Source: Methylocystis silviterrae (GTDB taxonomy: Bacteria > Pseudomonadota > Alphaproteobacteria > Rhizobiales > Beijerinckiaceae). From it: a DNA stretch of 64,000 bases. Position numbers and translations under genes: made by a program. Below are positions 2,280 through 55,729 of this stretch, piece by piece (within the stretch, counting starts at the first letter, position 1; each line of letters starts with the position of its first letter). The notes under the pieces were generated by a model, which was not told the origin of the DNA, did no database searches, and was given only the letters and a program-made list of their open reading frames with translations. The stretch lies in the NCBI RefSeq assembly GCF_013350005.1, contig NZ_JABVWW010000007.1:67501-131500 (forward strand), written 5' to 3'.

Positions 2280-3137
2280 GCCCACGCGCCGGCGCACGTC
2301 GGCTGGCGTCCAGCCCTCCGCGCGCAGCGCCCGCAGCGCTGTCGAGGCGGCGCTCTTCGCAAGCTTCTCGCCGTTCTCGTCCAGAACGAGGCCGTGATGG
2401 CGATAATCCGGCGCCGGCAGGTCGAGAAGACCTTGCAGCAGTCGATGCAGGCTCGTCGCTTCAAACAGATCCTTACCGCGCACGACGTCCGTCACGCCCT
2501 GCAGCGCGTCGTCGATGACGACGGCGATATGATAGCTCGCCGGCGTATCCTTGCGCGCAAGGACGACGTCGCCCCATTCCGCCGGATCGGCGACAATGTC
2601 GCCGGCGTCAAATTCGCGCCACGAGAGCCCCTGCCCCGCCAGAGCAGCCGCCTTACGCATATCGAGCCGCAGCGCGACGCCGCGCTGCGTTAGGACCTCG
2701 CGCGCCGCACGTCGCGGCTTGTCGCGGCAGGTTCCAGGGTAAAGCGGCGCGCCATCGGGGTCGTGCGGCCAATTCGGTTTCGCAACGGCGGCGCGGGCGA
2801 TGTCCGAACGCCGGCAATCGCAGGCATAAAGCAGCCCCTTGTCGTCGAGCCGTTCAAGCGCCCGCGCGTAATCGTCGAAATGTTCGGACTGGCGCCGCAC
2901 GGGCACCTCCCATTCAAGCCCGAGCCAGGCGAGGTCTTCATAGATCGCCGCTTCGAACTCATTCCGCGCGCGGCCCGTATCGATATCCTCGATGCGCAAC
3001 AGGAAACGCCCGCCGCATTGGCGCGCGAGATCGAAATTGAGGAGCGCCGAATAGGCGTGGCCGAGGTGCAGATAACCATTCGGCGACGGCGCGAAGCGGA
3101 AGACGCGCTGGCCACCCGCTGTCACTCCCGACGTCAT
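2274..3137 (-). CDS. gluQ: Glutamyl-Q tRNA(Asp) synthetase
   Basis: A truncated class I glutamyl-tRNA synthetase paralogue that attaches glutamate to the queuosine base of tRNA-Asp. Visible motifs: the nucleotide-binding APSPNGYLHLGH near the N-terminus (HIGH-class HLGH at residues 24-27), a zinc-site pattern CDC...Y...C around residues 110-140, and a KLAKS (KMSKS-type) motif near residue 250. At 287 residues it lacks the anticodon-binding domain of GltX, as expected for GluQ. The start is uncertain: ATG at 3137 lies inside the palindromic repeat 3133-3210 and has no clear ribosome-binding site, while a GTG at 3125 is a close alternative. Its 3' end overlaps the vapC remnant by 6 bases on the opposite strand. 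Confidence 0.93.
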   Translation of the reverse strand: MTSGVTAGGQRVFRFAPSPNGYLHLGHAYSALLNFDLARQCGGRFLLRIEDIDTGRARNEFEAAIYEDLAWLGLEWEVPVRRQSEHFDDYARALERLDDKGLLYACDCRRSDIARAAVAKPNWPHDPDGAPLYPGTCRDKPRRAAREVLTQRGVALRLDMRKAAALAGQGLSWREFDAGDIVADPAEWGDVVLARKDTPASYHIAVVIDDALQGVTDVVRGKDLFEATSLHRLLQGLLDLPAPDYRHHGLVLDENGEKLAKSAASTALRALRAEGWTPADVRRRVGL

Positions 3138-3210
3138 TGCGAGGAGCGCAGCCACGACGCAATCCAGCCGCCCACCAACGCCTGAATTGCTTCGCTTCGC
3201 TCGCAATGAC
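3133..3210. repeat. Palindromic repeat (GTCATTGCGAGGAGCG family)
   Basis: Inverted repeat with outer arms GTCATTGCGAG... and ...CTCGCAATGAC. The inner arms are imperfect (GCAATCCAG versus CTGAATTGC). This is a common alphaproteobacterial intergenic hairpin element. It separates cmk from gluQ and supplies the likely gluQ start codon. It may act as a transcript-processing or attenuation structure between the two co-oriented genes. Confidence 0.8.
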
Positions 3211-3216
3211 CAAACT

Positions 3217-3846
3217 TCAACGTCGCGCCTTTTCCACCATTCCCCGCGCGGCCGCGAAAGCCTCCTCGATGTCGAGGTCGGTCGTGTCGAGCGTCACCGC
3301 GTCGGCGGCCGCCTTTAAGGGCGCGGCGCTGCGGGCGCTGTCGCGGGCGTCGCGCTTCTTTACGTCTTCGAGAATGGCGGCGTAGTCGGCGTCTTCGCCG
3401 GCGCGCGCAAGCTCCAGAGCGCGGCGGGTGGCGCGCGTCTCCGGCGCCGCGGTGACGAAAATCTTCACCTTCGCGTCGGGGCAGATCACCGTGCCGATGT
3501 CGCGTCCGTCGAGGACGGCGCCTTCCGGCCGCGCCGCGAAGCCCCGCTGCATGTCGACGAGCGCCGCGCGCACCGCCGGCATAGCGGCGACGACGGACGC
3601 CGCCTCGCCCATGTCGCGCGCGCGCAGCCGCCTTTCGTCGAAGTCGGTGAGCGACAGGCTGCGCGCGGCGGCGACCGCAGCTTCGACGTCGTCGAGCGGG
3701 AGACCCTCCTCCAGCAGCGCGCAGGCCGTGGCGCGATAGAGCAAGCCGGTATCGAGATGCGGCAGGCCGTAATGCGCCGCAAGGCGTCGCGCCAGGGTGC
3801 CCTTCCCCGACGCCGCGGGGCCGTCGATGGCGATGACGAAGCTCAC
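3217..3846 (-). CDS. cmk: Cytidylate kinase
   Basis: Phosphorylates CMP and dCMP with ATP in cytosolic pyrimidine nucleotide metabolism. The P-loop GPAASGKGT occupies residues 9-17, followed by the DTGLLYRA substrate-binding stretch at about 32-39 and the [13 protein letters not shown] motif at about 114-126. Its length of 209 residues is normal. The start codon overlaps the aroA stop by 4 bases (ATGA), so the two genes are translationally coupled. The aroA-cmk order is common in alphaproteobacteria. Confidence 0.96.
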
Positions 3847-5189
3847 GAGAAGCGCGCTCCGAGTCGCTCCATCAGCGGGCGAAACGCCGGAAAGCTCGTC
3901 GCGATCATCGTGTCGTCGTCGACCGTGACTTTCTTCTCGGCGGCGAGACCCATGACCAGAAAGCTCATGGCGATGCGATGATCGAGATGCGTCTCGACCA
4001 TGCCGCCGCCGGCGACCCTGCCGCCGCGCACGATCAAGTCGTCATCGATGATCTCGCAGCCGACGCCATTGGCTTTAAGCCCGGCGGCGACCGCCTCGAG
4101 ACGATCCGATTCCTTCACGCGCAATTCGGAGAGCCCGCGCATCCGCGTCTCACCCTTGGCGAAGGAGGCCGCGACGGCGAGGATCGGATATTCGTCGATC
4201 ATTGAGGGCGCCCGCGCCGCCGGCACATCGACGCCGGCAAGATGCGAGAAGCGCGCGCGAATGTCGGCGACCTCTTCGCCGCCCTCCTCGCGCCTGTTCT
4301 CCAACGCGATATCGGCGCCCATTTCCTTGAGCGTCGTCAGCAGACCGCTGCGCAGCGGATTGGTCATCACCCCTTCGATGACGATGTCCGAGCCCTCGAT
4401 GATCAGCGCGGCGACGAGCGGAAAAGCGGCCGATGACGGATCGGCAGGAACCCGCACCTCCCGCGCGGTCATTTCCGGGCGCCCTTCAAGCGTAATCTTG
4501 CGGCCATGCGGGCCATGAGGCGCGCTTACGACCTTTGCGCCGAAATGCGCGAGCATTTTCTCGGTGTGATCGCGCGAAGCCTCGGCCTCGATCACCGTCG
4601 TCTGGCCGGGCGAATTCAGTCCGCAGAGCAGCACCGCCGATTTAATCTGCGCCGAAGCGACGGGCGTCTTGTATTCGACCGGCAAGGGCTCGCTCGATCC
4701 TTGCAGCACCAGCGGCAGGCGGCCGCCCTCGGCCTGCTCCAGAACCTGGGCGCCTTGCAGCGCCAGGGGATCGAGAATGCGCTTCATCGGGCGTTTCCGC
4801 AGCGAGGCGTCGCCGTCGAAGCGCGCGAGGATCGGGTGGCCGACGACGACGCCCATCATCAGCCGCGAGCCGGTGCCGGCATTGCCGAAATCGAGGGTCT
4901 CCGTGGGCTGCAGCAGCGAGCCGAGCCCGGCGCCCCAGACGCTCCAGCGACCGTCGTCATGGCGCAGGATCTTCGCGCCAAGCTGGCGGCAGGCCTGCGC
5001 CGTCCGCAACACGTCCTCGCCTTCGAGAAGCCCTTCGATCTTCGTCTCGCCGATGGCGAGCAGGCCGAAGATCAGCGCGCGATGCGAAACCGATTTGTCG
5101 CCCGGCGGGCGCACGCGGCCCTTAAGCGGCCCGGATTTATGGGCGCTGAGCGGCGCGGCGGGAGCATGGGCATGGGCGGCGTGCGGCAT
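3843..5189 (-). CDS. aroA: 3-phosphoshikimate 1-carboxyvinyltransferase (EPSP synthase)
   Basis: Transfers the enolpyruvyl group from PEP to shikimate-3-phosphate, the sixth step of the shikimate pathway. The protein shows [13 protein letters not shown] at residues 28-40, the [11 protein letters not shown] signature, RDHTEKML, and RVKESDRLE near the C-terminus. It belongs to the class with Gly-Thr-Gly rather than Gly-Thr-Ala in the PEP-binding loop, as in class II enzymes. I chose ATG at 5189 (448 residues) because the extra residues from an upstream ATG at 5234 are Arg-rich and unlike the family. It lies 115 bp downstream of tRNA-Gly on the same strand and overlaps cmk. Confidence 0.96.
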
Positions 5190-39703: not shown

Positions 39704-42700
39704 TCATTGAATCTTGCGCCGAAGGCCGTCGAGCCACCTCTTGGCTCGACCCAGATCAATCTTTTTTGCTTCCTGCAAGCCGATCTCTTGCGCGAAACTC
39801 CCTTCCGACCTTGCAGCCGCCGGCGTGGACTCGCGGGCGCTCCCCGACTGGAAAAAACGCGCGAAAATGCGCACGACCACATAGAAGGTCGGCGTGAACG
39901 CGAGGCCGAACAGCGTCACGCCGAGCATGCCGAAAAACACCGCCGTGCCGATGGACTGACGCATTTCGGCGCCTGCGCCCTGCGCGACGGCGAGCGGCAG
40001 CACGCCGAGAATGAACGCCAGCGACGTCATCAGAATGGGCCTAAGACGCGTGCGGGCGGCGGTGACGGCAGCGTCGAATTTGGACTGGCCACCGTCTTCA
40101 GCCTGCTTGGCGAATTCGACGATGAGGATGGCGTTCTTCGCCGCGAGGCCGATCAGCACGACGAGCCCAATCTCGACCAATATGTTGCGATCGAGCCCCC
40201 TTGAGACGACCCCGAGCATCGCCGCGAGAATGCACATCGGCACGATGAGGATCACCGAAACCGGCAGGAGCAGGCTCTCATAGAGCGCGGCGAGCAGCAG
40301 AAAGACGAAAACCACCGCAAGGCCAAACGCGATGGCGGCGGTATTCCCGGCAAGCTTCTCCTGCAGGGCGATTTCCGTCCATTCGAAGCCGAATCCTTGC
40401 GGCAGCTTCTCCGCCGCGAGCTTCTCGACCGCCGCGATGCCCTGGCCGGAGGAGACGCCGCGCGCGAGATTGAGCTGCACCTCCGCGGCCGGATAGAGAT
40501 TGTAGCGCGGCACGCGGAACGCGCCCGTCGTGTCGCGGAACGCAGCGACGGCGCCGATCGGCGCCATCGCGCCCGAAGCGCTGCGGGTCTTCAGATTGGC
40601 GATGTCGCGCAGCGTCAGGCGAAAGGGATCATCGGCCTGCGCCATGACGCGGTAGGTGCGTCCAAGGACATTGAAGTCGTTGACGAAGGTCGAGCCAAGA
40701 TAGACCGAGAGCGTCTCGAAAACGCGCGAGATCGGCACGCCGATGAGTTCGGCCTTCGTGCGATCGACGTCGGCGAAGATCTGCGGCGTGCGCGTGTTGA
40801 ACAGGGTGAACGCCTGCGTGAATTCTCCCGACTGACCAGCCGCGCCCGCGAGCGTCCATGTCGCGTTTTCGAGCGCAGGAAGTCCGCGCCCGGCGCGATC
40901 CTGCACATAGCCCTTGAGGCCGCCGCCGGTGCCGATTCCGGGCACCGAAGCCGGCGCCAGCACGAAGACGAAGGCGTCATTCAGTTTGGACAGTTGGCCG
41001 TAAAGGTCGGCTTGAATCTGCGCGGAGGACAGCCCCTTCTTTGCACGTTCCTCGAAGGCCTCCAGCGTGACGAAGATCACGCCGGTGTTCGGCGCATTGG
41101 TGAATGTCGCGCCGTCAAAGCCGGTGAAAACGACAGCATCCTTGACGCCCGCGCGCTTCAAAATAATGTCGGTCGCTTCGCGCATCACCTTGTCGGTGCG
41201 ATCGAGCGTCGCCCCGGGCGGCAATTGGAAAGCGGCGATCACATAGCCGCGATCGAGTTGCGGAATGAGGCCGGTTGGCGTTCGACGCAGTAGATCGAAG
41301 GCGAAAAAGATGAGGATCGCATAGACGGCGAGCATGACGACGCCAAGCCGCACGAGACGGCCCGTCGCCGCGCCATATGCCGTCGACACCCTGTCGAACG
41401 CGGCGTTGAAGGCGTCGAAGAAGCGACGCAGCGGCGCATGCGCCCAGCTCAGCCGATGCGTCTTCTCTTCCTCCTCGACATCATGCGGCTTCAACAACAT
41501 CGCCGCCAGCGCCGGCGACAGCGTCAGCGAAACAAAGGCTGAGATCAGCGTGGCGCTCGCGATGGTGATGGCGAATTGCTTATAGAACGCGCCCTGCAAG
41601 CCGCTGATGAAGGCGGTCGGGATGAACACGCCGCAGAGCACGAGCGCAATCGCGATCAACGCCCCGCCGACTTCATCCATCGTCTTGTGCGCGGCTTCCT
41701 TGGGCGAGAGCCCTTGCGCGAGATAGCGCTCGACATTCTCAACGACGACAATCGCGTCGTCGACGACGATGCCGATGGCGAGCACCAGGCCGAAGAGCGA
41801 GAGCGTGTTGAAGCTGAGGCCGGCGGCCGTCATCACGGCGAAGCTGCCGATCAGCGACACCGGGATCGCCGCCACCGGAATGATCGCCGCGCGCCACGTC
41901 TGCAGGAACAGGATGACGACGAGAACGACGAGGACGATCGCCTCGAGCAGGGTATGGACGACTTCGTCCACCGACTGCTGGATGAATTCGGTGGGATTGT
42001 AGACGACCGTGTAATCGACGCCGGCAGGGAAATTCTTCTTGAGCCGCTCCATCTCCTGCTTGACGGCCTCGGCCGTCTGCAAAGCGTTCGAGCCGGGACG
42101 CTGAAAGATGCCGAGCGCCGTCGCAACGTCGTGGTTGAGATAGGCGTTGAGCGTATAGTCCTGCGCGCCGAATTCGATGCGCGCGATGTCGCGCAGGTAA
42201 ATCTGCCCATCGGCGTCGGCGCGGATGACGATGTCGCCAAATTGCTCCGGCGTGCTGAGCCGTCCCAGAGTCTGCACCGAAAGCTGGAAGGCGCCCGCCG
42301 AGGCCGCTGGCGGCTGATTGACCGCGCCGGCGGCGACTTGCAGATTGGCGCCGCGCAGCGCGGCGATGACGTCGCCCGCCGTCAGATCGCGCGCCTCGAC
42401 TTTCGCCGGATCGAGCCAGACGCGCATCGAATAGTCTCTCGCGCCAAACAGGCGCGCGTCGCCGACCCCGTCGATTCGGGCGATGGCGTCCTTCACGTAG
42501 AGCGTCGCGTAGTTCGAAATATATTGCTGGTCGCGCGAGCCGTCGGGCGACAGCAGATGGACGACCATCATCAGATCCGGCGAGGCCTTCTTCACCACGA
42601 CGCCGAAGCGCGTCACCTCCTCCGGCAACCGCGGATTGGCGATGGCGACGCGGTTCTGAACGAGCACCTGCGCGAGATCGATGTTGACGCCCGGCTTGAA

Positions 42701-42985
42701 CACGACGTCGATCGACACGCGTCCGTCGCCCGTCGATTGCGACGTGATGTAGAGCATGTCGTCGACGCCATTGACCTCCTGCTCGATGGGCGAGGCCACG
42801 GTCTCGGCGATCACGTCCGCCGACGCGCCGGGATAGGTTGCGCTGATATTCACTGTCGGCGGCGCGATTTCCGGATATTCGGAGACGGGAAGCGCGCCTT
42901 GAGCAATCGCTCCCGCAAGCGTCAGAAGCACGGAAAGCACCGCCGCAAAGATCGGCCGCTCGATGAAGAAGTGCGAAATGCGCAT
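39704..42985 (-). CDS. RND efflux pump permease (AcrB/HAE1 type)
   Basis: Proton-driven inner-membrane efflux transporter, 1093 residues. N-terminal FFIERPIFAAVLSVLLTLAG is typical of the HAE1 family. The proton-relay aspartates are in AIGIVVDDAIVVVENV, and the conserved lysine in GLAAKNAILIVEF. Two large periplasmic loops and 12 membrane helices are present. The C-terminal tail after the last helix is about 40 residues longer than AcrB. The adaptor gene lies 20 bp upstream. No TolC-like outer-membrane gene is in the window. Confidence 0.95.
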   Translation of the reverse strand: MRISHFFIERPIFAAVLSVLLTLAGAIAQGALPVSEYPEIAPPTVNISATYPGASADVIAETVASPIEQEVNGVDDMLYITSQSTGDGRVSIDVVFKPGVNIDLAQVLVQNRVAIANPRLPEEVTRFGVVVKKASPDLMMVVHLLSPDGSRDQQYISNYATLYVKDAIARIDGVGDARLFGARDYSMRVWLDPAKVEARDLTAGDVIAALRGANLQVAAGAVNQPPAASAGAFQLSVQTLGRLSTPEQFGDIVIRADADGQIYLRDIARIEFGAQDYTLNAYLNHDVATALGIFQRPGSNALQTAEAVKQEMERLKKNFPAGVDYTVVYNPTEFIQQSVDEVVHTLLEAIVLVVLVVILFLQTWRAAIIPVAAIPVSLIGSFAVMTAAGLSFNTLSLFGLVLAIGIVVDDAIVVVENVERYLAQGLSPKEAAHKTMDEVGGALIAIALVLCGVFIPTAFISGLQGAFYKQFAITIASATLISAFVSLTLSPALAAMLLKPHDVEEEEKTHRLSWAHAPLRRFFDAFNAAFDRVSTAYGAATGRLVRLGVVMLAVYAILIFFAFDLLRRTPTGLIPQLDRGYVIAAFQLPPGATLDRTDKVMREATDIILKRAGVKDAVVFTGFDGATFTNAPNTGVIFVTLEAFEERAKKGLSSAQIQADLYGQLSKLNDAFVFVLAPASVPGIGTGGGLKGYVQDRAGRGLPALENATWTLAGAAGQSGEFTQAFTLFNTRTPQIFADVDRTKAELIGVPISRVFETLSVYLGSTFVNDFNVLGRTYRVMAQADDPFRLTLRDIANLKTRSASGAMAPIGAVAAFRDTTGAFRVPRYNLYPAAEVQLNLARGVSSGQGIAAVEKLAAEKLPQGFGFEWTEIALQEKLAGNTAAIAFGLAVVFVFLLLAALYESLLLPVSVILIVPMCILAAMLGVVSRGLDRNILVEIGLVVLIGLAAKNAILIVEFAKQAEDGGQSKFDAAVTAARTRLRPILMTSLAFILGVLPLAVAQGAGAEMRQSIGTAVFFGMLGVTLFGLAFTPTFYVVVRIFARFFQSGSARESTPAAARSEGSFAQEIGLQEAKKIDLGRAKRWLDGLRRKIQ

Positions 42986-43005
42986 AGCGTTCCTGATCTC
43001 GACGT

Positions 43006-44202
43006 CTATCGGTCGCTAACCGCGACAGGCGCTTCCTTGATCTCGCCTTCCTTGGGCTGAACGGTCGCGCCGGATCGAACCATCGGATTTGCGAGCCCGC
43101 CGATCACGATCCGATCCTTCGCGTCGAGGCCGGATTGGATCACGCGCAGACCATTGTGAATGGGGCCAAGACTCACGGATTTGGCGATGACCTTGTTGTC
43201 GTCCGACACGACAAGCACGGTCTTGCTCGTCTGATCGGAGACGACGGAAGCATCGGGAATGAGCAGCGCGGAGACGTCGCCGCCGAACAGGCGCAGGCGA
43301 CCAAACGTGCCGGGCGTCAGAAAATAGTCCTTGTTGTCGAAGACGGCGCGGCCACGGATCGTGCCGGAGCGCCTATTGAGCTGATTGTCCATGAAGTCCA
43401 TGACGCCGCTGCGGGTCCACTCGGTCTCGTCAGCAAGCCGCACCGAGACGCGATTTTTGAACTCGCGCGAGGTCTCTTTCGGACGCTCCGCTGAGCGCGC
43501 ATAGCGAATGTAGTCGGCCTCGGAGGCGTCGAAGATGAAGTGGATGGGATCGAGCGTCACGATCGTCGTGAGCAATGTCGCATCCGCCTGTCCGCCCTGA
43601 ACGAGATTGCCCGAATCGACGCGACGGTCCGACACGCGTCCGGCGATCGGCGCGCGGACCTGCGTCCATTCCAGATTGAGTTCCGCGTTGCGAAGCGCGG
43701 CTTCGGCGCTCAAAACCTGGGCCTTGGCGATATCATTGCTCGCTTTGCGCTGATCGACGTCGCGCGCGGTGATGGTGCGGCCCTGCGTCATCTCCTGCGC
43801 GCGGGCATAATCGCGGGTCGACGCCACGGCTTGCGCCTGCGCCCGAGTGAGCTCCGCACGCGCGCTGTCGACCGCGATCTGATACGGCCGCTGATCGATG
43901 ACGAAGAGGACGTCGCCAGCTTTGACGAACTGCCCATCGGTGAAATTGATCTTCTCCAGAGCGCCGGAGACGCGCGCGCGCACCTCGACCTGCTTTAAGG
44001 CCTCGAAACGACCTGTATATTCGTCCCAGCGCGGGATCGTCCTCGCGAGCGGGCGGGAGACCACCACTTCCGGGGCCGGACCCTCTGCGCGCGCCACTGC
44101 TGATTGGGCGAGAAACACCAACGCCGCGAGCGTTTTAAACAATGCGCTTGCGACTCTCCCGTGACCATCGCCGCCGCGCGCCGCCACAAAAGCCAACAGC
44201 AT
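43006..44202 (-). CDS. RND efflux periplasmic adaptor subunit (AcrA type)
   Basis: Membrane-fusion protein of 398 residues bridging the RND permease and an outer-membrane channel. It has a signal sequence (…AALVFLAQSAVARA), a lipoyl-half VRARVSGALEKINFTDGQFVKAGDVLFVID (split barrel strand), a coiled-coil hairpin (about 105-165) and APIAGRVSDRRVDSGNLV. ATG 44202 has GGAGGTGAG immediately upstream, which decides the start over a frame opening at 44487. It forms an operon with the permease. Confidence 0.94.
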   Translation of the reverse strand: MLLAFVAARGGDGHGRVASALFKTLAALVFLAQSAVARAEGPAPEVVVSRPLARTIPRWDEYTGRFEALKQVEVRARVSGALEKINFTDGQFVKAGDVLFVIDQRPYQIAVDSARAELTRAQAQAVASTRDYARAQEMTQGRTITARDVDQRKASNDIAKAQVLSAEAALRNAELNLEWTQVRAPIAGRVSDRRVDSGNLVQGGQADATLLTTIVTLDPIHFIFDASEADYIRYARSAERPKETSREFKNRVSVRLADETEWTRSGVMDFMDNQLNRRSGTIRGRAVFDNKDYFLTPGTFGRLRLFGGDVSALLIPDASVVSDQTSKTVLVVSDDNKVIAKSVSLGPIHNGLRVIQSGLDAKDRIVIGGLANPMVRSGATVQPKEGEIKEAPVAVSDR

Positions 44203-44382
44203 CTCACCTCCGGTTTTGACGTTCGCATTGAACCGGCCGTTCTTGACCGGCGCATAACGCAGGGACGACGTAAGGGCGGCGCTCCCAGAAGGCAAATCGC
44301 GCTGCGCAGCGTCTCCCCCGCCCCGCGTTGCCAAGCATTGCCGAAACGCGCAAACTGCCGCCTCCGGACGGAGGACGAAAAC

Positions 44383-44718
44383 ATGCCCTTGTTCCTGGCG
44401 CAGTTTGCCTATTCTCCTGCCGCTTGGTCCACCTTCGTCAAGGCGCCCCAGGACCGCGCCGCGGCTTCCGAAGCGCTTCTCAGGCACTTCGGCGGCCGCC
44501 TCATCGGATTATATTACACGCCCGGCGCAGAATATGACGGATTTGCGCTCTTCGAAGCGCCCGATGAAACCACCGCCGCGGCTATTGAGATCGCGGACGT
44601 CGCCGCAGGGCATCTGAGCCGCAATCGGCTCACCAGAGTATTCTCGGCTGACGAGACGAGCGCGATGCTCCTGCAGGCGGCCACGGCCCCGAGCATGACG
44701 CCTAAAAGTACGGCGTAG
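44383..44718 (+). CDS. GYD domain-containing protein
   Basis: A 111-residue GYD-family protein (MPLFLAQFAYSPAAWSTFVKAP, RHFGGRLIGLYYTPGAEYDGFALFEAPDE). These are small ferredoxin-like alpha/beta barrel proteins of unknown role, common in alphaproteobacteria. The ATG at 44383 follows GGACGGAGGACG. It is transcribed divergently from the RND adaptor. The upstream in-frame sequence overlaps that gene's 5' region and is not protein-like. Confidence 0.8.
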   Translation: MPLFLAQFAYSPAAWSTFVKAPQDRAAASEALLRHFGGRLIGLYYTPGAEYDGFALFEAPDETTAAAIEIADVAAGHLSRNRLTRVFSADETSAMLLQAATAPSMTPKSTA

Positions 44719-44902: not shown

Positions 44903-45133
44903 TCAATTTCCGGAGCGTAAGATCAGCGGCGAGGCGCTAAAAGAGGCGATCAACTCGTGGCGCCTCGTCCAGTGCAGGAGCGCTCGGCCAAAGAGCGAAG
45001 CTATTCCCGTCAGCAGGACGACGGAGCCGAACTGCCAGATGCAGACCGACACTGCCGCGTCCTGTCTGAAGGAAAGCAGCGAGGCCGCCGCGGCCAGGGC
45101 CGTCGATGCGAGCGCGGCAAGTCCAATCGTCAC
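44903..45133 (-). CDS. Small two-helix membrane protein, start uncertain
   Basis: 76 residues from GTG at 45133, with two hydrophobic helices (TIGLAALASTALAAAASLL and VCIWQFGSVVLLTGIASLFG). No ribosome-binding site precedes the GTG. The protein-like frame continues upstream without a start codon (LDRLKRALADSPLQRRVDKRG) until a stop at about 45221. An ATG at 45219 lies one base out of frame. Either a noncanonical start is used or a one-base frameshift has separated the start from the body. It is divergent from the bufferin operon. Confidence 0.45.
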   Translation of the reverse strand: MTIGLAALASTALAAAASLLSFRQDAAVSVCIWQFGSVVLLTGIASLFGRALLHWTRRHELIASFSASPLILRSGN

Positions 45134-45254
45134 GAATGGCGCGCCGCGCTTATCGACTCTGCGCTGGAGCGGGGAGTCCGCTAACGCTCGTTTTAATCGA
45201 TCAAGCGTCGGCGCGCCATCTCACCTGACTTGCTTGTGCAGAGGAACGCAGACT

Positions 45255-45282
45255 GTAACCTTTGACGCCGTCGCGACGAAAT
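45255..45282 (+). promoter_or_regulatory. ECF-sigma-like promoter of the bufferin operon
   Basis: GTAACC at 45255-45260, a 16-bp spacer, then CGAAAT at 45277-45282. GTAACC-type -35 boxes are used by ECF sigma factors, including Caulobacter SigF, which controls bufferin-type genes. Distance to bufA is about 108 bp. Pattern-based only. Confidence 0.45.
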
Positions 45283-45389
45283 TGACCCATGAGACGGCGA
45301 ACGGTCGACTTGAATTGCGCGCCGAATACGTCAGATTTCAACCGATCGCCGTTTATGGATGAATCGGACGCAAGCAGAGGGAGATCAGA

Positions 45390-45668
45390 ATGTCAGACAA
45401 GAAGCTTTGCGCCGCGATTGCGATCGCGGGCGCCTTCGCGACGGCCGTCGCTCTGGCTGAAACGGCTAAGGCCGCGAACGACCAAGAAAAGTGCTTCGGC
45501 GTCTCCTTGAAGGGCAAGAATGATTGCGCGGCGGGCCCGGGAACCAGCTGCGCAGGAACGTCAAAGACCAATTATCAAGGCGACGCATGGAAATATGTTC
45601 CGAAGGGCACGTGCACGTCTATCGTAACGCCCAAGGGCAAGGGCAGTCTCGAGCCGATTTCGCACTGA
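45390..45668 (+). CDS. bufA: Bufferin precursor peptide, BufA1 family (DUF2282)
   Basis: A 92-residue RiPP precursor with an N-terminal signal peptide ([18 protein letters not shown]). The DUF2282 core has Cys35, Cys46, Cys54 and Cys75 in [25 protein letters not shown] and PKGTCTS. In characterised bufferins, cysteines of this core are converted to thiooxazoles by the BufB/BufC enzymes and the exported product binds copper. The ribosome-binding site is AGGGAGA about 8 bases before ATG. bufB begins 8 bp after its stop. All four expected operon members follow in order. Confidence 0.9.
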
Positions 45669-45676
45669 GGCCAGGC

Positions 45677-46603
45677 ATGGGCGCGCGTTCCGCCCCCGAA
45701 CATTGCCGCGAGCGCGCAGCGTCCTCGCTGCCCGCTCGCGCTGGAGTCGGTTTCAAGAGCGTGCATTTCCCCGACATCGAAGCCTCGGCGCGCGATGTCG
45801 GTTTTTTCGAAATCCACGCCGAGAATTACATGGGCGCCGGCGGGACTCCGCACGCGCAGCTTATGCCTTTGCGCCGAGATTCGCCCCTCTCGATCCATGG
45901 CGTCGGCCTGTCGATCGGCGGCGCTGAGCCTCTCGATCGCGCGCATCTTGGCCGTCTGAAGACGCTTGTCGAACGCTATGACCCGGCCGCGTTCTCCGAA
46001 CATCTCGCCTGGTCGACGCAGGGAACGCGCTTTCTGAACGACTTGCTGCCCCTGCCCTATAACGCGACAACGTTGGCGCATGTCGTCGCTCATGTGGATG
46101 AAATCCAGGAGGCGCTCGGCCGGCCGATCCTCCTCGAAAACCCAGCAGCCTATCTGCGGTTCCAATCCTCGGAGTATTCGGAGATCGAATTCCTGCGCGA
46201 GGTCGTGCGCCGCACGGATTGCCGGCTGCTGCTCGACGTCACCAACGCCTATGTCAGCGCAGCAAACCTGGGTTTCTCAGCGGATGAGTATATCGACGCC
46301 TTCCCAATGTCCTATGTCGAAGAGATTCATCTTGCCGGATATGCCGACGATGTCGATGAAGTCGGCGCGCCTCTGCTGATCGACGCGCATTGCGCGCCCG
46401 TCCCTGACGCGGTTTGGCGCCTCTATGATCGCGCGCTGGCGCGACGCGGACCGGTCGCGACGCTAATCGAATGGGACAACAACATTCCCTCCTGGCCGAC
46501 CCTCTTGGCGCAAGCCACGCAAGCGGAGGCGTTCCTTGGAAGGCGGCGGCGTGCTGTCGAAGACAGCTTGAGATCGGAGGCGCTTCATGACGATCTCGGC
46601 TGA
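45677..46603 (+). CDS. bufB: MNIO-family RiPP maturase BufB (DUF692)
   Basis: Multinuclear non-heme iron oxidase that modifies bufferin cysteines, related to MbnB of methanobactin synthesis. 308 residues of TIM-barrel type with the conserved MNIO metal and substrate blocks: FFEIHAENYMG, LSIHGVGLSIGG, FSEHLAWS, ILLENPAAYL, LLLDVTNAYVSA, EIHLAGYADD, LLIDAHCAPV and LIEWDNNIP. The block usually written DVNN reads DVTN. ATG 45677, 8 bp after bufA, is chosen; upstream in-frame sequence is bufA in another frame. Its 3' end overlaps bufC by 17 bp. Confidence 0.93.
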   Translation: MGARSAPEHCRERAASSLPARAGVGFKSVHFPDIEASARDVGFFEIHAENYMGAGGTPHAQLMPLRRDSPLSIHGVGLSIGGAEPLDRAHLGRLKTLVERYDPAAFSEHLAWSTQGTRFLNDLLPLPYNATTLAHVVAHVDEIQEALGRPILLENPAAYLRFQSSEYSEIEFLREVVRRTDCRLLLDVTNAYVSAANLGFSADEYIDAFPMSYVEEIHLAGYADDVDEVGAPLLIDAHCAPVPDAVWRLYDRALARRGPVATLIEWDNNIPSWPTLLAQATQAEAFLGRRRRAVEDSLRSEALHDDLG

Positions 46604-47360
46604 CTTCGATCAAGGCGCATTTGTCCGCGCCCTACTCGACCCAGAGCTGCCGCCGCCCAACGAGCTCGAAACCCCCGGCGGCTTTCGGCCAGAGCGACGG
46701 TTCGCCGTCTATCGCAACAATGTGTGCGTCGGACTGGTCGACGCGCTGGCGGAGCGCTTTCCAATTTGCTTACAGTTGGTCGGCGATGAATTTTTCCGCG
46801 CCATGGCGCAATGCTATGTGCGCGAACGCCTTCCGCGCACGCCGATGCTTTTCGAATATGGCGACGCGTTTGCGACATTCGTCTCGAATTTCAAGCCGGC
46901 GCGCGAACTTCCTTACCTTCCGGACGTCGCGCGGCTCGAGTATGCCGTGGGCGCAGCCTATCACGCCGCTGACGCCGCGCCGCTACCGTTGGAATTGATC
47001 CGCGCCCTGCCGCTCGATCGATTGGAGAGCGCAACGGCTGTTCTGCATCCCTCGACGCAGGTCGTAGCGTCCGCCTATCCGATCGTTTCGATCTGGCGGC
47101 GGCATATGTCAGATGAAAAGATGAAGCCGCTGGAATTGGACCGCGGCGAAGAGGCGCTCGTCGTTCGTCCTGAGCTGGCGATCAGCGTGTCACCGCTTCC
47201 TTCCGGCGGATCGGATTTCGTGGATGCGCTTAGGAGCGGAGGAACATTCGGCGAAGCCGTGAATGCGGCGACCGCCGTCGCGATGGATTTCAAACTGACC
47301 GACTGCTTGCGCGAGCTTCTCTTGACTGGAGTCTTCGTAGCCGTCAGCGTCGCGCACTGA
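46587..47360 (+). CDS. bufC: BufC, putative DNA-binding/partner domain protein (DUF2063)
   Basis: A 257-residue DUF2063 protein, the usual partner of DUF692 maturases, which binds the precursor and presents it to BufB. The N-terminal block FAVYRNNVCVGLVDALAERFP and LPYLPDVARLEYA are family-typical. The C-terminal part (about 130-257) is a second, more variable domain with TQVVASAYPIVSIWR. The start overlaps the end of bufB, so translation is coupled. The older annotation of DUF2063 as DNA-binding is not supported by context. Confidence 0.9.
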   Translation: MTISADFDQGAFVRALLDPELPPPNELETPGGFRPERRFAVYRNNVCVGLVDALAERFPICLQLVGDEFFRAMAQCYVRERLPRTPMLFEYGDAFATFVSNFKPARELPYLPDVARLEYAVGAAYHAADAAPLPLELIRALPLDRLESATAVLHPSTQVVASAYPIVSIWRRHMSDEKMKPLELDRGEEALVVRPELAISVSPLPSGGSDFVDALRSGGTFGEAVNAATAVAMDFKLTDCLRELLLTGVFVAVSVAH

Positions 47361-47416
47361 ATTTAAAAAACGCGTTTTGGCTTGGCCGCGGCGATCATTG
47401 ATGGAGTTTGAATGCA

Positions 47417-47899
47417 ATGAATTTCATAAGAAAGATCGCACGCTGGTTGGATGCGATCCCCTACGCCCTGATCGCCCTCTTCCTGCGCATCGTCGCCGCG
47501 CATCCGTTCTTCGTCTCCGGTCAGACAAAGATTGAAGGACCGACTCTAGGCCGCGAAATTTTCGGCTTTGATCTTTCGATCCAGATTCCGACAGCGGTTC
47601 GCAGCGCGACCTTCGCGCTATTCGCCGACGAATATAAACTGCCGCTCATTTCGCCGACCGCCGCCGCCTATGTGGCAAGCGGCCTCGAATTCGTCCTGCC
47701 GCTGCTGCTTGTCCTTGGGCTTTTGACGCGCCTATCGGCGTTCATTCTTCTGGCGATGACAATCGTCATCCAGATCTTCGTCTATCCCGATGCATGGTGG
47801 ACGGTTCATGCCTATTGGATGGCGATCCTCACCGTGTTGGTCGCCCGCGGGCCCGGCGCGATCTCCCTCGACCATCTGCTGTTTCGGCGCCGAAGCTAA
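47417..47899 (+). CDS. bufD: DoxX family membrane protein BufD
   Basis: A 160-residue membrane protein with four predicted helices (ALIALFLRIVAAHPFF; AAYVASGLEFVLPLLLVLGL; LSAFILLAMTIVIQIFVYP; HAYWMAILTVLVARGPGAIS), typical of DoxX. DoxX genes commonly end bufferin operons; the role is unproven. GGAG 10 bases upstream supports ATG 47417 over the TTG at 47408. It is 56 bp after bufC on the same strand. Confidence 0.88.
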   Translation: MNFIRKIARWLDAIPYALIALFLRIVAAHPFFVSGQTKIEGPTLGREIFGFDLSIQIPTAVRSATFALFADEYKLPLISPTAAAYVASGLEFVLPLLLVLGLLTRLSAFILLAMTIVIQIFVYPDAWWTVHAYWMAILTVLVARGPGAISLDHLLFRRRS

Positions 47900-50600: not shown

Positions 50601-51971
50601 TCAATTCGCATTCGATCGCGGAAACTCCAGCTTGAACGTCGCGCCGCCTCCGGGCGTGTCCTCGACCCAGATATGGCCGCCGTGTGCGTCTACGATTTCC
50701 TTGGCGACGGCGAGGCCAAGGCCCGTGCCGGGAGTGGTTTCGTTCTTTCGCCAGAAGGCCTCGAAGACCAATTCGCGGTCCGTCTCTTCCACGCCGCCAC
50801 CATGATCGATTACTTCGAGCGTTGCGTTCTCGGCGACGCGAACGTGAACCATGCCGCCCTCTGGCTCGGCGCGAAGAGCGTTGTCGATGACATTCGAGAT
50901 GACGGACTCAAGCGCCGGCCGATTGCCCTGTATAAGAGCAGGCGCGCTGGGCGCGTCGAGAACGATCTGGCGCCGCGCCTTCAGCGCCAGAAGCGCTGCG
51001 TCCGCAATGATCGTTCTCGTCAACGCGACGAGGTCGATCGTGTGATCAAGCTTTGTCGATTGTTGACCGAGCCGCGCGGAAGCCAGCAGCTGCTCGACGA
51101 TGTTGCGTATTCGCCGATGATCGCGTTTCAGATCATTCTTAAAGGTCGGCTCCTCAGGCGCATCAAGCCGCACGCCGAGCACGTTAATGGGCGTGCGGAG
51201 TTCATGCGCGGCATTTGCCGTAAAACGCCGTTGCCGGGCGACGCCGGCATCGAGCCGCGCCAAAGCGTCGTTTACCGCGTCGACGAGGGGTCCAACTTCG
51301 CTCGATACGTCATTTGCATCGAGGCGTTGGTCCAGGCTGCTCATGTCGATTCGTGACGCCTGTGCCGCCACGCGTCTGAGCGGCCTCAATCCCCACCGCA
51401 CGGCGAACCAGGCTGCGCCTGCCGACATCAAAATCGCCATGACCAGGTAGGCGGTCAACCAGCGCGTTTCCTCAATGGCGGCGTCGACAATGTCGCCCCA
51501 ACGAAATTTCTGTCCGTAGACGGCGATGTGAAGGCGCCCGAAGGGAGTCCATTCTGGTTCCATAAGGCCCGCACGAATAGCGCTTGGATCGCCAGGCAGG
51601 ATGAAATGCACATGGGTCGGGCTGATCTCGATGAGAGGCTTCAGCATCGCGATGAGCTCTGGCGAGGAACCGGCAATTGGGTCACGGCTCAGCCTTCGAA
51701 ACGCCGCGAACTTCATAGCGGGCGCGCGCTTCAGATCTTCTAGCAGGTCCGGCGTCGGCCTGATCTCCAGCATTTTATCTTCATTCATCGCCAACGATGC
51801 GATGATCTGCTTTTTTGCGCGAATCGCCGACAACTCATCGAGCGATGTGGCGAAAATTTCTACTCCCGTAAGGCCGATGCCGATCGTTACCAGCCATGCG
51901 ATCGGAAAGGCTATAATTTGTGCAAGGAATAGACAGCCGACAATGCGTAATACGAGCGAATGCCGTCTCAA
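50601..51971 (-). CDS. Sensor histidine kinase (two-component system)
   Basis: A 456-residue membrane sensor kinase. Helix 1 lies at about 8-34 and helix 2 at about 172-192; the 135-residue periplasmic loop between them has no recognised fold. HAMP follows (about 193-245). The H-box TANAAHELRTPI puts phospho-His at 256. The ATPase has VIDNALRAEP, DHGGGVEE and GTGLGLAVAKEIV. Its start overlaps the regulator stop by 4 bases (ATGA). The loop presumably detects an envelope signal; the neighbouring TonB-receptor cluster makes metal or siderophore sensing a reasonable guess. Confidence 0.92.
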   Translation of the reverse strand: MRRHSLVLRIVGCLFLAQIIAFPIAWLVTIGIGLTGVEIFATSLDELSAIRAKKQIIASLAMNEDKMLEIRPTPDLLEDLKRAPAMKFAAFRRLSRDPIAGSSPELIAMLKPLIEISPTHVHFILPGDPSAIRAGLMEPEWTPFGRLHIAVYGQKFRWGDIVDAAIEETRWLTAYLVMAILMSAGAAWFAVRWGLRPLRRVAAQASRIDMSSLDQRLDANDVSSEVGPLVDAVNDALARLDAGVARQRRFTANAAHELRTPINVLGVRLDAPEEPTFKNDLKRDHRRIRNIVEQLLASARLGQQSTKLDHTIDLVALTRTIIADAALLALKARRQIVLDAPSAPALIQGNRPALESVISNVIDNALRAEPEGGMVHVRVAENATLEVIDHGGGVEETDRELVFEAFWRKNETTPGTGLGLAVAKEIVDAHGGHIWVEDTPGGGATFKLEFPRSNAN

Positions 51972-52645
51972 TCAAGCAACTCCGTCACCATGTAGCCAAC
52001 GCCGCGAATAGTGTGAATGGCGACGCCAGCGTTCAACACGATGACCCGTCGCCGCAAACGCGACACCGCCATATCGAGCGTATTGTCCTGAACGTCGTCG
52101 TGTGGAGAGAAGACCTCGTCGAGAAGAGTCTCGCGCGAAACCACGCGATTGACGCGCCGCAGAAGAGAATCGAGCAGGACCAATTCCCGCCGGTGCAGCG
52201 TGACGATTCTGTTCGAGATACGGACGTCACGCGTCGTCGGGTCAAAAGACAGCGCGCCCACGACGATCGGCTTTGGCGCGCCGCTTCCCGGACGCCGAAC
52301 GCAGGCCCGTATTCTCGCGACCAGCTCCTCTCCTTGAAAAGGCTTCGTCACATAGTCGTCCGCGCCGAGATCGAAGCTCGACACCTTTTCTCCCGTGTCA
52401 TCCATTGCCGTCAGCACCATGACGCGAATGCCCGGCCTCAGTTGCCGCGCAAGCGGCATGAGCGACAGCCCATCGCCATCAGGCAGACGACGATCGAGAA
52501 GCAAGAGGTCATAGTTTGATCGTTCGACAGCTTCTCGCGCAGCGCTCAGACAGCGGGCTTGATCAACGTCGAAACCGGCCTGGGCGACTAACGACGCCGT
52601 CAAACGCGCCGCGTCCAGCTCGTCTTCAACCAACAATATTCGCAT
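51968..52645 (-). CDS. OmpR-family response regulator
   Basis: A 225-residue regulator. Receiver: VEDE acidic pair at 6-9, phospho-Asp51 in LLLLDRRLPDGDG, and VTKPF with the conserved Lys at about 102-106. The C-terminal winged helix has LHRRELVLLDSLLR and VSRLRRRV followed by IHTIRGVGYM. ATG 52645 starts directly at the receiver strand, removing an unrelated N-terminal extension. It forms an operon with the kinase and diverges from the DUF2946-like gene, sharing about 200 bp of promoter region. Confidence 0.94.
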   Translation of the reverse strand: MRILLVEDELDAARLTASLVAQAGFDVDQARCLSAAREAVERSNYDLLLLDRRLPDGDGLSLMPLARQLRPGIRVMVLTAMDDTGEKVSSFDLGADDYVTKPFQGEELVARIRACVRRPGSGAPKPIVVGALSFDPTTRDVRISNRIVTLHRRELVLLDSLLRRVNRVVSRETLLDEVFSPHDDVQDNTLDMAVSRLRRRVIVLNAGVAIHTIRGVGYMVTELLD

Positions 52646-52848
52646 CTGGGCAACGATCCCTTCGCGCCGTTGATTATCGAATTTGGTTTCTAAATTCGCA
52701 AGACAGGACAGATCGGCGCGAAGGGCCGGCTGTTGCCCGAAAGACACAGCGTCTCGAATTCGCGCCAAAATTTCTCACGTCAGACTCATGTCAGGCACAT
52801 CGGCCCCGCTTTGGCTATTTATTCTCCACCAGGCGAAGAACGGCGACG

Positions 52849-53289
52849 ATGCGGCAGATCGGAAGTCCCGCGACAAAGACGAGCGAGAACGCTGATTGGC
52901 GTTTCGGACGCGTTCGCGCGGCTCTGTTCGGCTTTGTCGCATTTGTCATGGCGCTTCAGGGAGTTGTTTTCGCTTCGCCCTGGGCGCGAAGCGCTTCTCA
53001 TGAAGAGATTGCCGTAGTCTCGATCGCGGCCGTCGTCGATTGTGCGCAAGATGACTCGCGCCTGCCAGCGAGCGACGGTCACGCGCATAAGTGCTCTTTG
53101 GCTGGCCTCTGTTGCTTGGCAAGTTGCAAGGTGCAGACGTTTGGTCTCCCGGGAGCGGCATTTAGCCTAGCGCCCTGGCGCCGATTGGCGGCCGATGCTG
53201 TTAAGCGACACGCTCCCGCACGCAGCCGACTCGCGCTTGCCGGTTGGGCGAGCGCCTGGTCTTCGCGCGTCCCGCCGCAGGCGGCCTAA
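52849..53289 (+). CDS. DUF2946-like Cys-motif protein (paralogue D)
   Basis: About 146 residues with a hydrophobic segment (AALFGFVAFVMALQGVVFA) and the His/Cys cluster DGHAHKCSLAGLCCLASCK near residue 75. The arrangement of a membrane segment, then a Cys-rich patch, placed beside a TonB receptor copies the cluster at 9.4-13.8 kb. The ribosome-binding site is weak (AGGCGAAG), so a later start is possible. It lies 80 bp upstream of the receptor at 53369. Membership of DUF2946 is by architecture, not certain homology. Confidence 0.6.
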   Translation: MRQIGSPATKTSENADWRFGRVRAALFGFVAFVMALQGVVFASPWARSASHEEIAVVSIAAVVDCAQDDSRLPASDGHAHKCSLAGLCCLASCKVQTFGLPGAAFSLAPWRRLAADAVKRHAPARSRLALAGWASAWSSRVPPQAA

Positions 53290-53368
53290 TTCGCGGCTCG
53301 CGCCCTAAGCTCTCCTCTTCTTCTTCTCGTCTGCTCGAGCGCCGTGACAATCGCTCTGGAGTTTCTCA

Positions 53369-55729
53369 ATGAACTCGTCCGTTCTACTGCGCGGCGTTTC
53401 CGCCGGCGCGCTGTTGCTCGCCTTCGCGTCTGAATGCGCCCGCGCTCAGCAAGCGTTGCCTACGATCAGCATCGGAGGGCGCCAGCGCGCGCCATCGACT
53501 CACATATCGGGTCCGCCAACGAACGAGCCCGCCACGTCCGATTCGGGACCGTCATCCAATTTCCCAAGCGAGCCGAAGACGCCCGCCGAAGGCTATGTGG
53601 TGAATGACGCCACGACGGCCACCAAGACCGACATCCCAATCAGGGAAACGCCTGTGTCGGTGAACGTGGTCCCCAAGCAAGTGATGATCGACCAAAACAA
53701 TACAACCGTCCAGGAAGCCCTAGAGAATGTGCCAGGCGTGCGGTCCAACAACAACGAGGTCGAAGGATACAACTTCAAGATTCGCGGCTTTCAGAGCCTC
53801 AATATCTATCGCAACAATCTGTCTCTCGGCAATGTCAACCCCGGCATGCTCGACACCGCCAATCTGGAGCGCATCGAGGTGCTCAAGGGACCAGCGTCGA
53901 TACTTTACGGACGCGCGGAGCCCGGAGGATTGATCAATCTGGTGACCAAGCAGCCGCTCGATCGCGCCCGCTACGTTGTCGATCAACAGTTCGGATCTTT
54001 CAACTGGTATCGCACGCAGTGGGATTTCACCTCTCCTGTCGCTGAGGTTCCGGGGCTCGCCTATCGTGTCTCGGGAACCTATCAGAACAATGGCTCATTT
54101 CGCGGATATTCAGGGGGCGGAGAGCGCGTGCTCGTCGCGCCGGTGGTAAGCTACCGTCCGAGCGCCTGGACCGAGTTCACCCTAGAAGGACAATATTCAG
54201 GTCTGAAGGCGCAAAGCGACGTCGGAATCCCGACAATCGGACCGAAGTCCGCGCCGGTCCCGTTGAGCCGCTCATACCAGGAGGCCAATGATCCGCGCGA
54301 CCGCTTCGAGAACTATCTAATCAGTTATAAACTCCGTCAGAATCTCAATGAGGATTGGAAGGTCACCAACCGCTTTCTTTACGCCGCCGCCCCAATTTTC
54401 GATAAGCCCAATATCACGCCACTCTGCGTGACGCCGATGTGCGTCGACACGGATGGGCGAATGCTGCAACGCATCGGGCAATACCAGTTCGCGTCCGCTC
54501 GTACCTTCTCGACCAATATTGACATCGAAGGGAAGTTCGTGGCGCTTGGCGGCAAACACACATTTCTGATGGGGCTCGATTATCTGAACACCTATTACGA
54601 CTATTACTTCGCCAACGGTGCCGCACTCTATCCGATCGACATTTTTAGCCCGATCCATGGAACGGTACCGTCCTTCGCCTATTTTGATTCACAAATTGGA
54701 TCGGGAGGCAAATTTCATTCATCGACTCTCGAGAGACAAAAAGGGCTTTATGTCCAGGATTATGTCACATGGTTTGACCGTCTGCATGTGCTTGTCGGCG
54801 TCCGCTACGATGTAGCGGATCAAACGATAGGAACGTCATCGAGCTTTGAGAATGGCGGCGGCGTTTACGATGCGAGCAAGGACTTGGCGATCGCCAGTCG
54901 ACTGCGATCGCCGACGGCCATCGACAGGGGTTGGAGTCCGCGCGCTGGCGTCGTCTACGACATTCTTCCCCAGGTCAGCGTTTACGGCAGCTACTCAAGA
55001 TCTTTCGGCCAGAACAACGGCTTTACCGCCGACAGACAGCCTTTAGGGCCGCAGCGCGGCCTGCAATGGGAGGTCGGTCTGAAGGCCGAGCCTCTGCCGG
55101 GCCTGAGCGCCACGCTCGCCTTCTTCCAAATCACCAAATCCGGGGTGCCGACACGGGATTTCGCGTCATTGGCACCCATCGCGCAGAAGCTTGCCGGATT
55201 GCAGCGCAGCCGCGGAATCGAGGTTGACGTACTCGGCCGCGTTACCGATCGCATGACGATCGTGGGCAACTACGCATTGATCGACGCGACGGTTATCGCC
55301 GACAATCCGGTGAATCGATTAAACCCTTTTGGCTTTTTCGATGCCACGATCTTCGGAGAAGGTGGCGGCCTTCTCGGCAACCACCTCGACAATGTTCCGC
55401 GTCATTCGGGCAAAATCTTTCTGACCTACGCTTTTGGCGACAACGGCCTCGGATTACGTGTCGGCGGCGGCGTAACGGCCTCGACGCGTGCATGGGGCGA
55501 TATCCAAAACACATTTGTGCTGCCGGGATGGGCGCGTCTCGACGCCTTCGCGAGCTACGCGACGCTGGTCGAAGGCTATAAGGTGACCGCTCAGCTCAAT
55601 CTCAAGAACATCAATAACGCGCAGTATTTCACCGGTGTGGACGATTTCTTCAACTACAATGTTCCACCGCTGAATGCCATTCCCGCTAATCCCTTCACCG
55701 CGACTGGGCAGATCAGAGTGGAGTTCTAG
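53369..55729 (+). CDS. TonB-dependent siderophore-type receptor
   Basis: A 786-residue outer-membrane receptor. Signal peptide (…LLLAFASECARA), then AQQALPTISIGG, the same probable TonB box as the receptor at 10663. The plug shows RETPVSVNVVPKQVMIDQN, VQEALENVPGVRS and GYNFKIRGFQ, with LKGPASILYGRAEPGGLINLVTKQP (plug end), typical of FhuA/FpvA-like siderophore receptors. The protein ends in F after GQIRVE, the outer-membrane signal. The PepSY gene follows 3 bp later, so the two form an operon. Confidence 0.94.
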   Translation: MNSSVLLRGVSAGALLLAFASECARAQQALPTISIGGRQRAPSTHISGPPTNEPATSDSGPSSNFPSEPKTPAEGYVVNDATTATKTDIPIRETPVSVNVVPKQVMIDQNNTTVQEALENVPGVRSNNNEVEGYNFKIRGFQSLNIYRNNLSLGNVNPGMLDTANLERIEVLKGPASILYGRAEPGGLINLVTKQPLDRARYVVDQQFGSFNWYRTQWDFTSPVAEVPGLAYRVSGTYQNNGSFRGYSGGGERVLVAPVVSYRPSAWTEFTLEGQYSGLKAQSDVGIPTIGPKSAPVPLSRSYQEANDPRDRFENYLISYKLRQNLNEDWKVTNRFLYAAAPIFDKPNITPLCVTPMCVDTDGRMLQRIGQYQFASARTFSTNIDIEGKFVALGGKHTFLMGLDYLNTYYDYYFANGAALYPIDIFSPIHGTVPSFAYFDSQIGSGGKFHSSTLERQKGLYVQDYVTWFDRLHVLVGVRYDVADQTIGTSSSFENGGGVYDASKDLAIASRLRSPTAIDRGWSPRAGVVYDILPQVSVYGSYSRSFGQNNGFTADRQPLGPQRGLQWEVGLKAEPLPGLSATLAFFQITKSGVPTRDFASLAPIAQKLAGLQRSRGIEVDVLGRVTDRMTIVGNYALIDATVIADNPVNRLNPFGFFDATIFGEGGGLLGNHLDNVPRHSGKIFLTYAFGDNGLGLRVGGGVTASTRAWGDIQNTFVLPGWARLDAFASYATLVEGYKVTAQLNLKNINNAQYFTGVDDFFNYNVPPLNAIPANPFTATGQIRVEF

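Follow-up and report, generated by a model that had tools for sequence, protein, structure and literature searches.

A predicted Buf1 bufferin operon with a SigF-type promoter and a deleted sigF-nrsF neighbor in Methylocystis silviterrae

The DNA analyzed here is a 64,000-nucleotide stretch of the Methylocystis silviterrae genome (contig NZ_JABVWW010000007.1, positions 67,501 to 131,500; hereafter the window), which forms part of contig C62 in a draft assembly of 3.85 Mb and 64 contigs. On its forward strand it carries four genes resembling the Buf1 bufferin operons, which encode copper-buffering ribosomally synthesized and post-translationally modified peptides (RiPPs). These include bufA (45390-45668; a DUF2282, or Buf1, precursor of 92 aa), bufB (45677-46603; a multinuclear non-heme iron-dependent oxidative enzyme, MNIO, of 308 aa), bufC (46587-47360; a DUF2063 partner of 257 aa with a C-terminal half like a RiPP recognition element, RRE) and bufD (47417-47899; a DoxX membrane protein of 160 aa, for which an upstream TTG start at 47408 is also possible). 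A gap of 8 bp separates bufA from bufB, bufB and bufC overlap by 17 bp, and 56 bp lie between bufC and bufD. Open reading frame coordinates thus reproduce the gene order and spacing given in a preliminary description of the locus, which began the operon at 45255, the first base of a SigF-type promoter that it left unmentioned.

All four products score above the Pfam cut-offs: BufA on DUF2282 (PF10048; 87.2 bits, cut-off 22.4), BufB on MbnB_TglH_ChrH (336.5 bits), BufC on DUF2063 (PF09836; 85.5 bits) and BufD on DoxX (PF07681; 53.0 bits, cut-off 23.6). The family assignments of the preliminary description therefore stand, and the profile searches it proposed with the DUF2282, DUF692 and DUF2063 models each recovered the expected protein. 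In NCBIfam, BufB exceeds the cut-off of the bufferin-maturase model NF050167 (368.1 bits against 310) and falls far below that of the MbnB model TIGR04159 (49.2 against 325). The precursor is as it had been described, with a Sec-type signal peptide over approximately residues 1-28 (judged by eye) and core cysteines at residues 35, 46, 54 and 75 (codons at 45492, 45525, 45549 and 45612, forward strand); an additional Cys7 lies inside the signal peptide. The four core cysteines are conserved in 42/42 tblastn matches from the loci compared, the window copy excluded. A sequence search of the PDB with BufA and BufC returned no match up to E 1.

In the MbnB complex 7dz9 the iron ligands are H55, H91, E135, D165, N168, H194, D209 and E238, and D240 acts as the general base (PMC8888699). 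Alignment with 7dz9 places H74, H109, E154, D187, N190, H218, D236, E265 and D267 of BufB opposite these residues, in order, and the nine positions are invariant in all 18 rows of alignment A3. The predicted BufB model (pLDDT, the predicted local distance difference test, 86) has 3bww, TglH and MbnB as its closest structures. For the BufC model (pLDDT 88), the only PDB matches at E<=0.001 were two TglHI partner chains and NGO1945, all three of them MNIO partner structures, with moderate TM-scores (0.51-0.63). A phylogenetic tree of 31 MNIOs sets the DUF2282-adjacent enzymes, together with six unlabelled named relatives, on one side of a branch with support of 94/90; enzymes of BufA2-type operons and one encoded on contig C11 of this genome form another group (92/84), and MbnB is separate (100/100). 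An earlier version of the tree, holding a wrong-strand junk row (L064) and a very long branch (the MNIO of contig C5), supported the Buf1 group at only 41/0, and these two rows were left out of the 31-row tree. Of the phylogeny proposed in the preliminary description, the placement of BufB inside the bufferin group and apart from MbnB is borne out, on a tree whose rows do not include the experimentally studied Caulobacter BufB.

The nearest named matches of BufB are Methylocystis proteins (89-90% for the best four), and 17 Methylocystis loci of the same type were compared with the window (L065-L079, L081 and L082). All four genes occur in the window order in 15/17, the other two (L068 and L077) being interrupted by contig ends. 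We conclude, from sequence comparison, that 45390-47899 is in all probability a genuine Buf1 bufferin operon, a further case of a known type.

Upstream of bufA, positions 45255-45280 (forward strand) match exactly the Caulobacter SigF motif GTAACC-N16-CGAA of Kohler et al. (PMC3511200), the first base lying 135 bp upstream of the start codon of bufA. The exact motif also precedes bufA in the 17/17 other same-type loci. Among 39 bufA upstream regions, many of them from near relatives, 22 contain the exact motif and 31 a match within one mismatch, compared with 0.017 and 0.43 in dinucleotide shuffles (60 rounds); outside the genus, 7/10 scanned regions match within one mismatch. The genes scanned were picked by their cysteine pattern, which L092, L094 and L104 (bufA found by tblastn) missed, leaving them unscanned, and L066 supplied only 282 bp. 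Eight regions have no site within one mismatch at N16 spacing (L080, L083, L084, L090, L091, L095, L099 and L100); of these, L084 matches exactly, and L099 with one mismatch, at N15 spacing. The exact match of L087, L088 and L089 is found 373-378 bp before bufA. Among the loci that fail, L080 (genome G006) has bufA, bufC and bufD matches at 2533-4188 and no bufB match in the stretch, apparently a Buf1 locus without an MNIO of its own.

In 16/17 same-type loci a divergent sigF gene lies directly upstream of bufA, and in 15 of these nrsF, the anti-sigma factor gene, comes next; the contig of L066 ends before sigF and that of L081 inside the sigF/nrsF stretch. Such local adjacency, frequent in the SigF regulon without defining it, is not found at the window operon. 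Comparison by blastn with five sister loci (L071, L072, L073, L075 and L076) showed that 1.07-1.12 kb is absent upstream of bufA, comprising the whole sigF gene and the codons for residues 1-152 of NrsF. What remains is an nrsF stump on the reverse strand (44933-45151) corresponding to residues 153-228 of the sister protein, which has 231 aa (87% identity by tblastn), and the deletion junction falls at 45149-45153. The junction edges compared contained no long shared repeat that would suggest a collapsed assembly. The four buf genes are free of stop codons, and their ratios of nonsynonymous to synonymous substitution rates (dN/dS; bufA, bufB, bufC and bufD in order) are 0.04, 0.27, 0.29 and 0.12 between the window and eight sisters and 0.03, 0.25, 0.29 and 0.12 among 28 sister pairs. 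The local sigF-nrsF pair has been lost in this strain, while the promoter is intact and bufABCD are intact and under normal constraint.

Two further nrsF genes, each adjoining a sigF, are found on contigs C7 and C8, which carry paralogous gene sets. Each of these islands (C7, loci L023 and L024; C8, L021 and L022) holds a sigF-nrsF pair, a BufA2-MNIO-DUF2063 set, and genes for a methylthioadenosine (MTA)-phosphorylase-like protein, an ArsM-like methyltransferase, a radical S-adenosylmethionine (SAM) protein and proteins of TIGR04282 and TIGR04283. Both TIGR families, named for arsenosugar synthesis, score above cut-off on both islands. Within the 72.5 kb of the islands there are 19 motif sites within one mismatch against 3 for the reversed motif, whereas the other loci together with the window (116 kb) have 5 against 7. 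Eight island sites precede identifiable targets: the BufA2 precursor, TIGR04282 and radical SAM genes of each island, one of the TIGR04283 genes and a second bufA. We rejected the genome-wide count of exact matches as promoter evidence, there being 9 against 8 for the reversed motif. Seven of the nine lie on C7 and C8, which make up 3% of the genome (Poisson probability approximately 8e-9 at the rate of the reversed motif), and in the genome-wide counts this clustering alone carries weight.

The genome contains two genes of the pmoA/amoA family and, on contig C1, a methanobactin locus in which MbnB, MbnC, MbnM, MbnF and a sigma factor ending in an MbnA precursor each score above cut-off. The preliminary description had taken the host for a likely methanotroph and the operon for a system distinct from methanobactin; both statements hold, given the Methylocystis affinity of the nearest matches, the two pmoA-family genes, the failure of BufB on the MbnB model and the separate methanobactin locus. 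Within that locus (L027 8077-8937, reverse strand) an extracytoplasmic function (ECF) sigma factor reads in frame into MbnA, a fusion already described, and the MbnA core, MCASTCAATNG, is the type predicted for M. hirsuta CSC-1 (PMC3621798). Seven MNIO genes were counted in the genome: two beside DUF2282 precursors, two beside BufA2 precursors (above the model cut-off), mbnB and two others. One of the latter, on contig C11, follows a secreted-looking His/Cys-rich protein of 76 aa (285843-286073; L025 6344-6571, forward strand) that matched no NCBIfam or Pfam model and is possibly a further precursor type. The other, on C5 (L026 6104-7847, reverse strand), adjoins a gene for a TIGR04222 membrane protein, with genes resembling those of pyrroloquinoline quinone (PQQ) synthesis nearby (by eye). 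By the MbnB model, none of the 119 other genomes has more than five MNIO genes; seven were also found in the most extreme of >40,000 genomes in PMC12452194, by a counting method that differs from ours. Across 39 genomes of the genus, including the present one, DUF2282 occurs in 20/21 with MbnB above cut-off and in 6/18 without (Fisher p = 7e-5), and among genomes at least 90% complete in 18/19 and 5/13, respectively (p = 0.0009), both values being uncorrected for kinship. The sole MbnB genome without DUF2282, G008, has another MNIO match near an NrsF match.

Taken together, these results suggest that the window holds a copper-chelating Buf1 operon that starts from the SigF-type promoter and is controlled in trans by one or both SigF proteins of the islands, an account to which we assign a probability of about 0.65. 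Bufferins are thiooxazole-containing peptides that sequester periplasmic copper, and those of the Buf1 type are modified at their central cysteines, with a disulfide joining the outer pair (PMC12452194); DUF2282 systems have been placed in the thiooxazole class (PMC13097082). By homology with these proteins, BufA would be synthesized in the cytoplasm and presented by BufC to the multi-iron enzyme BufB, which would oxidize Cys46 and Cys54, the expected modification targets, to thiooxazoles. The modified peptide would then be exported by the Sec pathway, closed by a Cys35-Cys75 disulfide, and chelate excess periplasmic copper, with BufD as an inner-membrane accessory at an unspecified step. Transcription from 45255-45280 would respond to metal stress, copper being the presumed signal from the promoter match: in Caulobacter, copper induces SigF and its regulon, including the DUF2282 operon, and a strain mutated in sigF is sensitive to copper (PMC8224329). 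Control in trans is proposed because the neighboring sigF-nrsF pair is deleted in this strain; an island SigF may be able to drive the operon. The bufferin would work in the opposite direction to methanobactin, the copper-uptake RiPP of the same genome.

A historical extension of this account is that regulation was handed over: two SigF islands were gained or duplicated, the local sigF-nrsF pair was subsequently lost, and bufABCD now belongs to a wider island-encoded metal-stress regulon. The islands would have added arsenosugar-type genes, operons of the BufA2 type and a second one of the Buf1 type to a cell that also produces methanobactin to take up copper. We offer this sequence of events tentatively, the odds being somewhat against it. 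Among the literature matches listed, no paper paired arsenosugar with MNIO or DUF692.

Several observations weigh against control by the islands, or against copper as the signal. The loss of sigF-nrsF is known from one draft assembly, without read support. The island SigF proteins share 67% (C7) and 63% (C8) identity with the sister SigF, and 14 and 15, respectively, of the last 20 aligned region-4 residues (a label that agrees with Pfam) with the bufA-linked SigF of L073, so that their recognition of the window promoter is uncertain. Of the 19 island sites, only the eight with targets have a clear start 18-81 bp downstream, two others being inside sigF genes and nine without a clear target. 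The natural signal might not be copper, since Caulobacter SigF also responds to chromate and cadmium (PMC3511200). As to naming, BufA, BufC and BufD score below cut-off on the NCBIfam models for their sister families BufA2 (21.2 against 60), HvfC (45.7 against 142) and HvfX (45.4 against 80), and the NCBIfam scan yielded no model dedicated to the precursors of Buf1 or to their partner.

One alternative is that the operon is intact but silent, its activator having gone with the local sigF and the island sigma factors, which differ at 5-6 of the 20 region-4 residues, ignoring its promoter; the genes would then decay. We consider this unlikely, as the promoter is intact, the genes lack stops and have dN/dS values like those of sister pairs (a weak test where the loss is recent), and the same motif precedes the eight island genes. 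It is more doubtful still that the product handles mainly another metal, arsenic or oxidative stress instead of copper. The arsenosugar-type genes of islands with the same promoter type, like the chromate and cadmium response, favor such a role, but bufferins bind copper (PMC12452194), the Caulobacter regulon is copper-induced and needed for copper tolerance (PMC8224329), and the ArsM-like and ArsS-like island proteins fall below their model cut-offs. A copper-uptake role of the methanobactin kind, to which the shared enzyme superfamily of BufB and MbnB and the copper-dependent methane monooxygenase genes of the strain might point, is highly improbable and was rejected on the failure of BufB on the MbnB model and the separate methanobactin locus; BufA moreover has a Sec signal peptide in place of a leader, and no MbnC, multidrug and toxic compound extrusion (MATE) exporter or MbnA-kind precursor adjoins the operon.

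The copper-chelating Buf1 assignment may be compared with four known systems. The Caulobacter vibrioides Buf1 operon (CCNA_03362-03366, with sigF and nrsF) shares the precursor family, MNIO, partner, DoxX gene, gene order and SigF motif (PMC8224329, PMC3511200, PMC12452194). In contrast, the window operon has no adjoining sigF and only a stump of nrsF, the other sigF-nrsF pairs being on other contigs, and its host additionally has a methanobactin locus. Methanobactin MbnABC resembles the window system in the MNIO superfamily, the iron-ligand residues and the cysteine-derived copper ligands, and differs in a leader that is not a Sec signal, a partner (MbnC) that is not DUF2063, oxazolone-thioamide chemistry and a function in copper uptake. 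The oxazolin/fontiphorin operons HvfABC and FonABC share the MNIO and the DUF2063-RRE partner, and are grouped with DUF2282 systems as thiooxazole captophorins (PMC13097082), but their precursors have EGKCG repeats and their HvfC and HvfX models are not satisfied by BufC and BufD. The two BufA2-type operons on C7 and C8 likewise have a periplasmic bufferin-type precursor, an MNIO, a DUF2063 gene and a SigF-type promoter at one mismatch; their precursor family is a different one and their MNIOs fall in the separate tree group. These operons merit attention because sigma factor and NrsF genes were found in Buf1 but not Buf2 clusters (PMC12452194).

Elsewhere in the window, a multidrug-type resistance-nodulation-division (RND) efflux permease and periplasmic adaptor are encoded upstream of the buf operon (39704-44487, reverse strand). 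A two-component system at 50601-55729, which most resembles heavy-metal sensor kinases (score below cut-off), is divergent from a TonB-dependent siderophore-type receptor (above the TIGR01783 cut-off). Among the literature matches listed, in a search outside which most subscription papers lie, none contained Methylocystis and DUF2282 together, and only PMC12538549 (Microbulbifer) mentions both methanotroph and bufferin. The available main text of the Methylosinus copper transcriptome paper (PMC12811070) mentions neither DUF nor DoxX.

Beyond the preliminary description, the present analysis adds the SigF-type promoter, the loss of the neighboring sigF-nrsF pair and a further six MNIO genes elsewhere in the genome. 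What makes the operon interesting is its context, that of a bufferin operon separated from the sigma factor gene beside it, in a methanotroph that has a methanobactin locus and seven MNIO genes. The deletion offers a natural test of SigF control, with genes and promoter the same and the local sigma factor gone. Methanotrophs have a high need for copper yet are harmed by its excess, and this strain allows one to ask how a single cell runs copper-uptake and copper-buffering RiPPs made by one enzyme superfamily.

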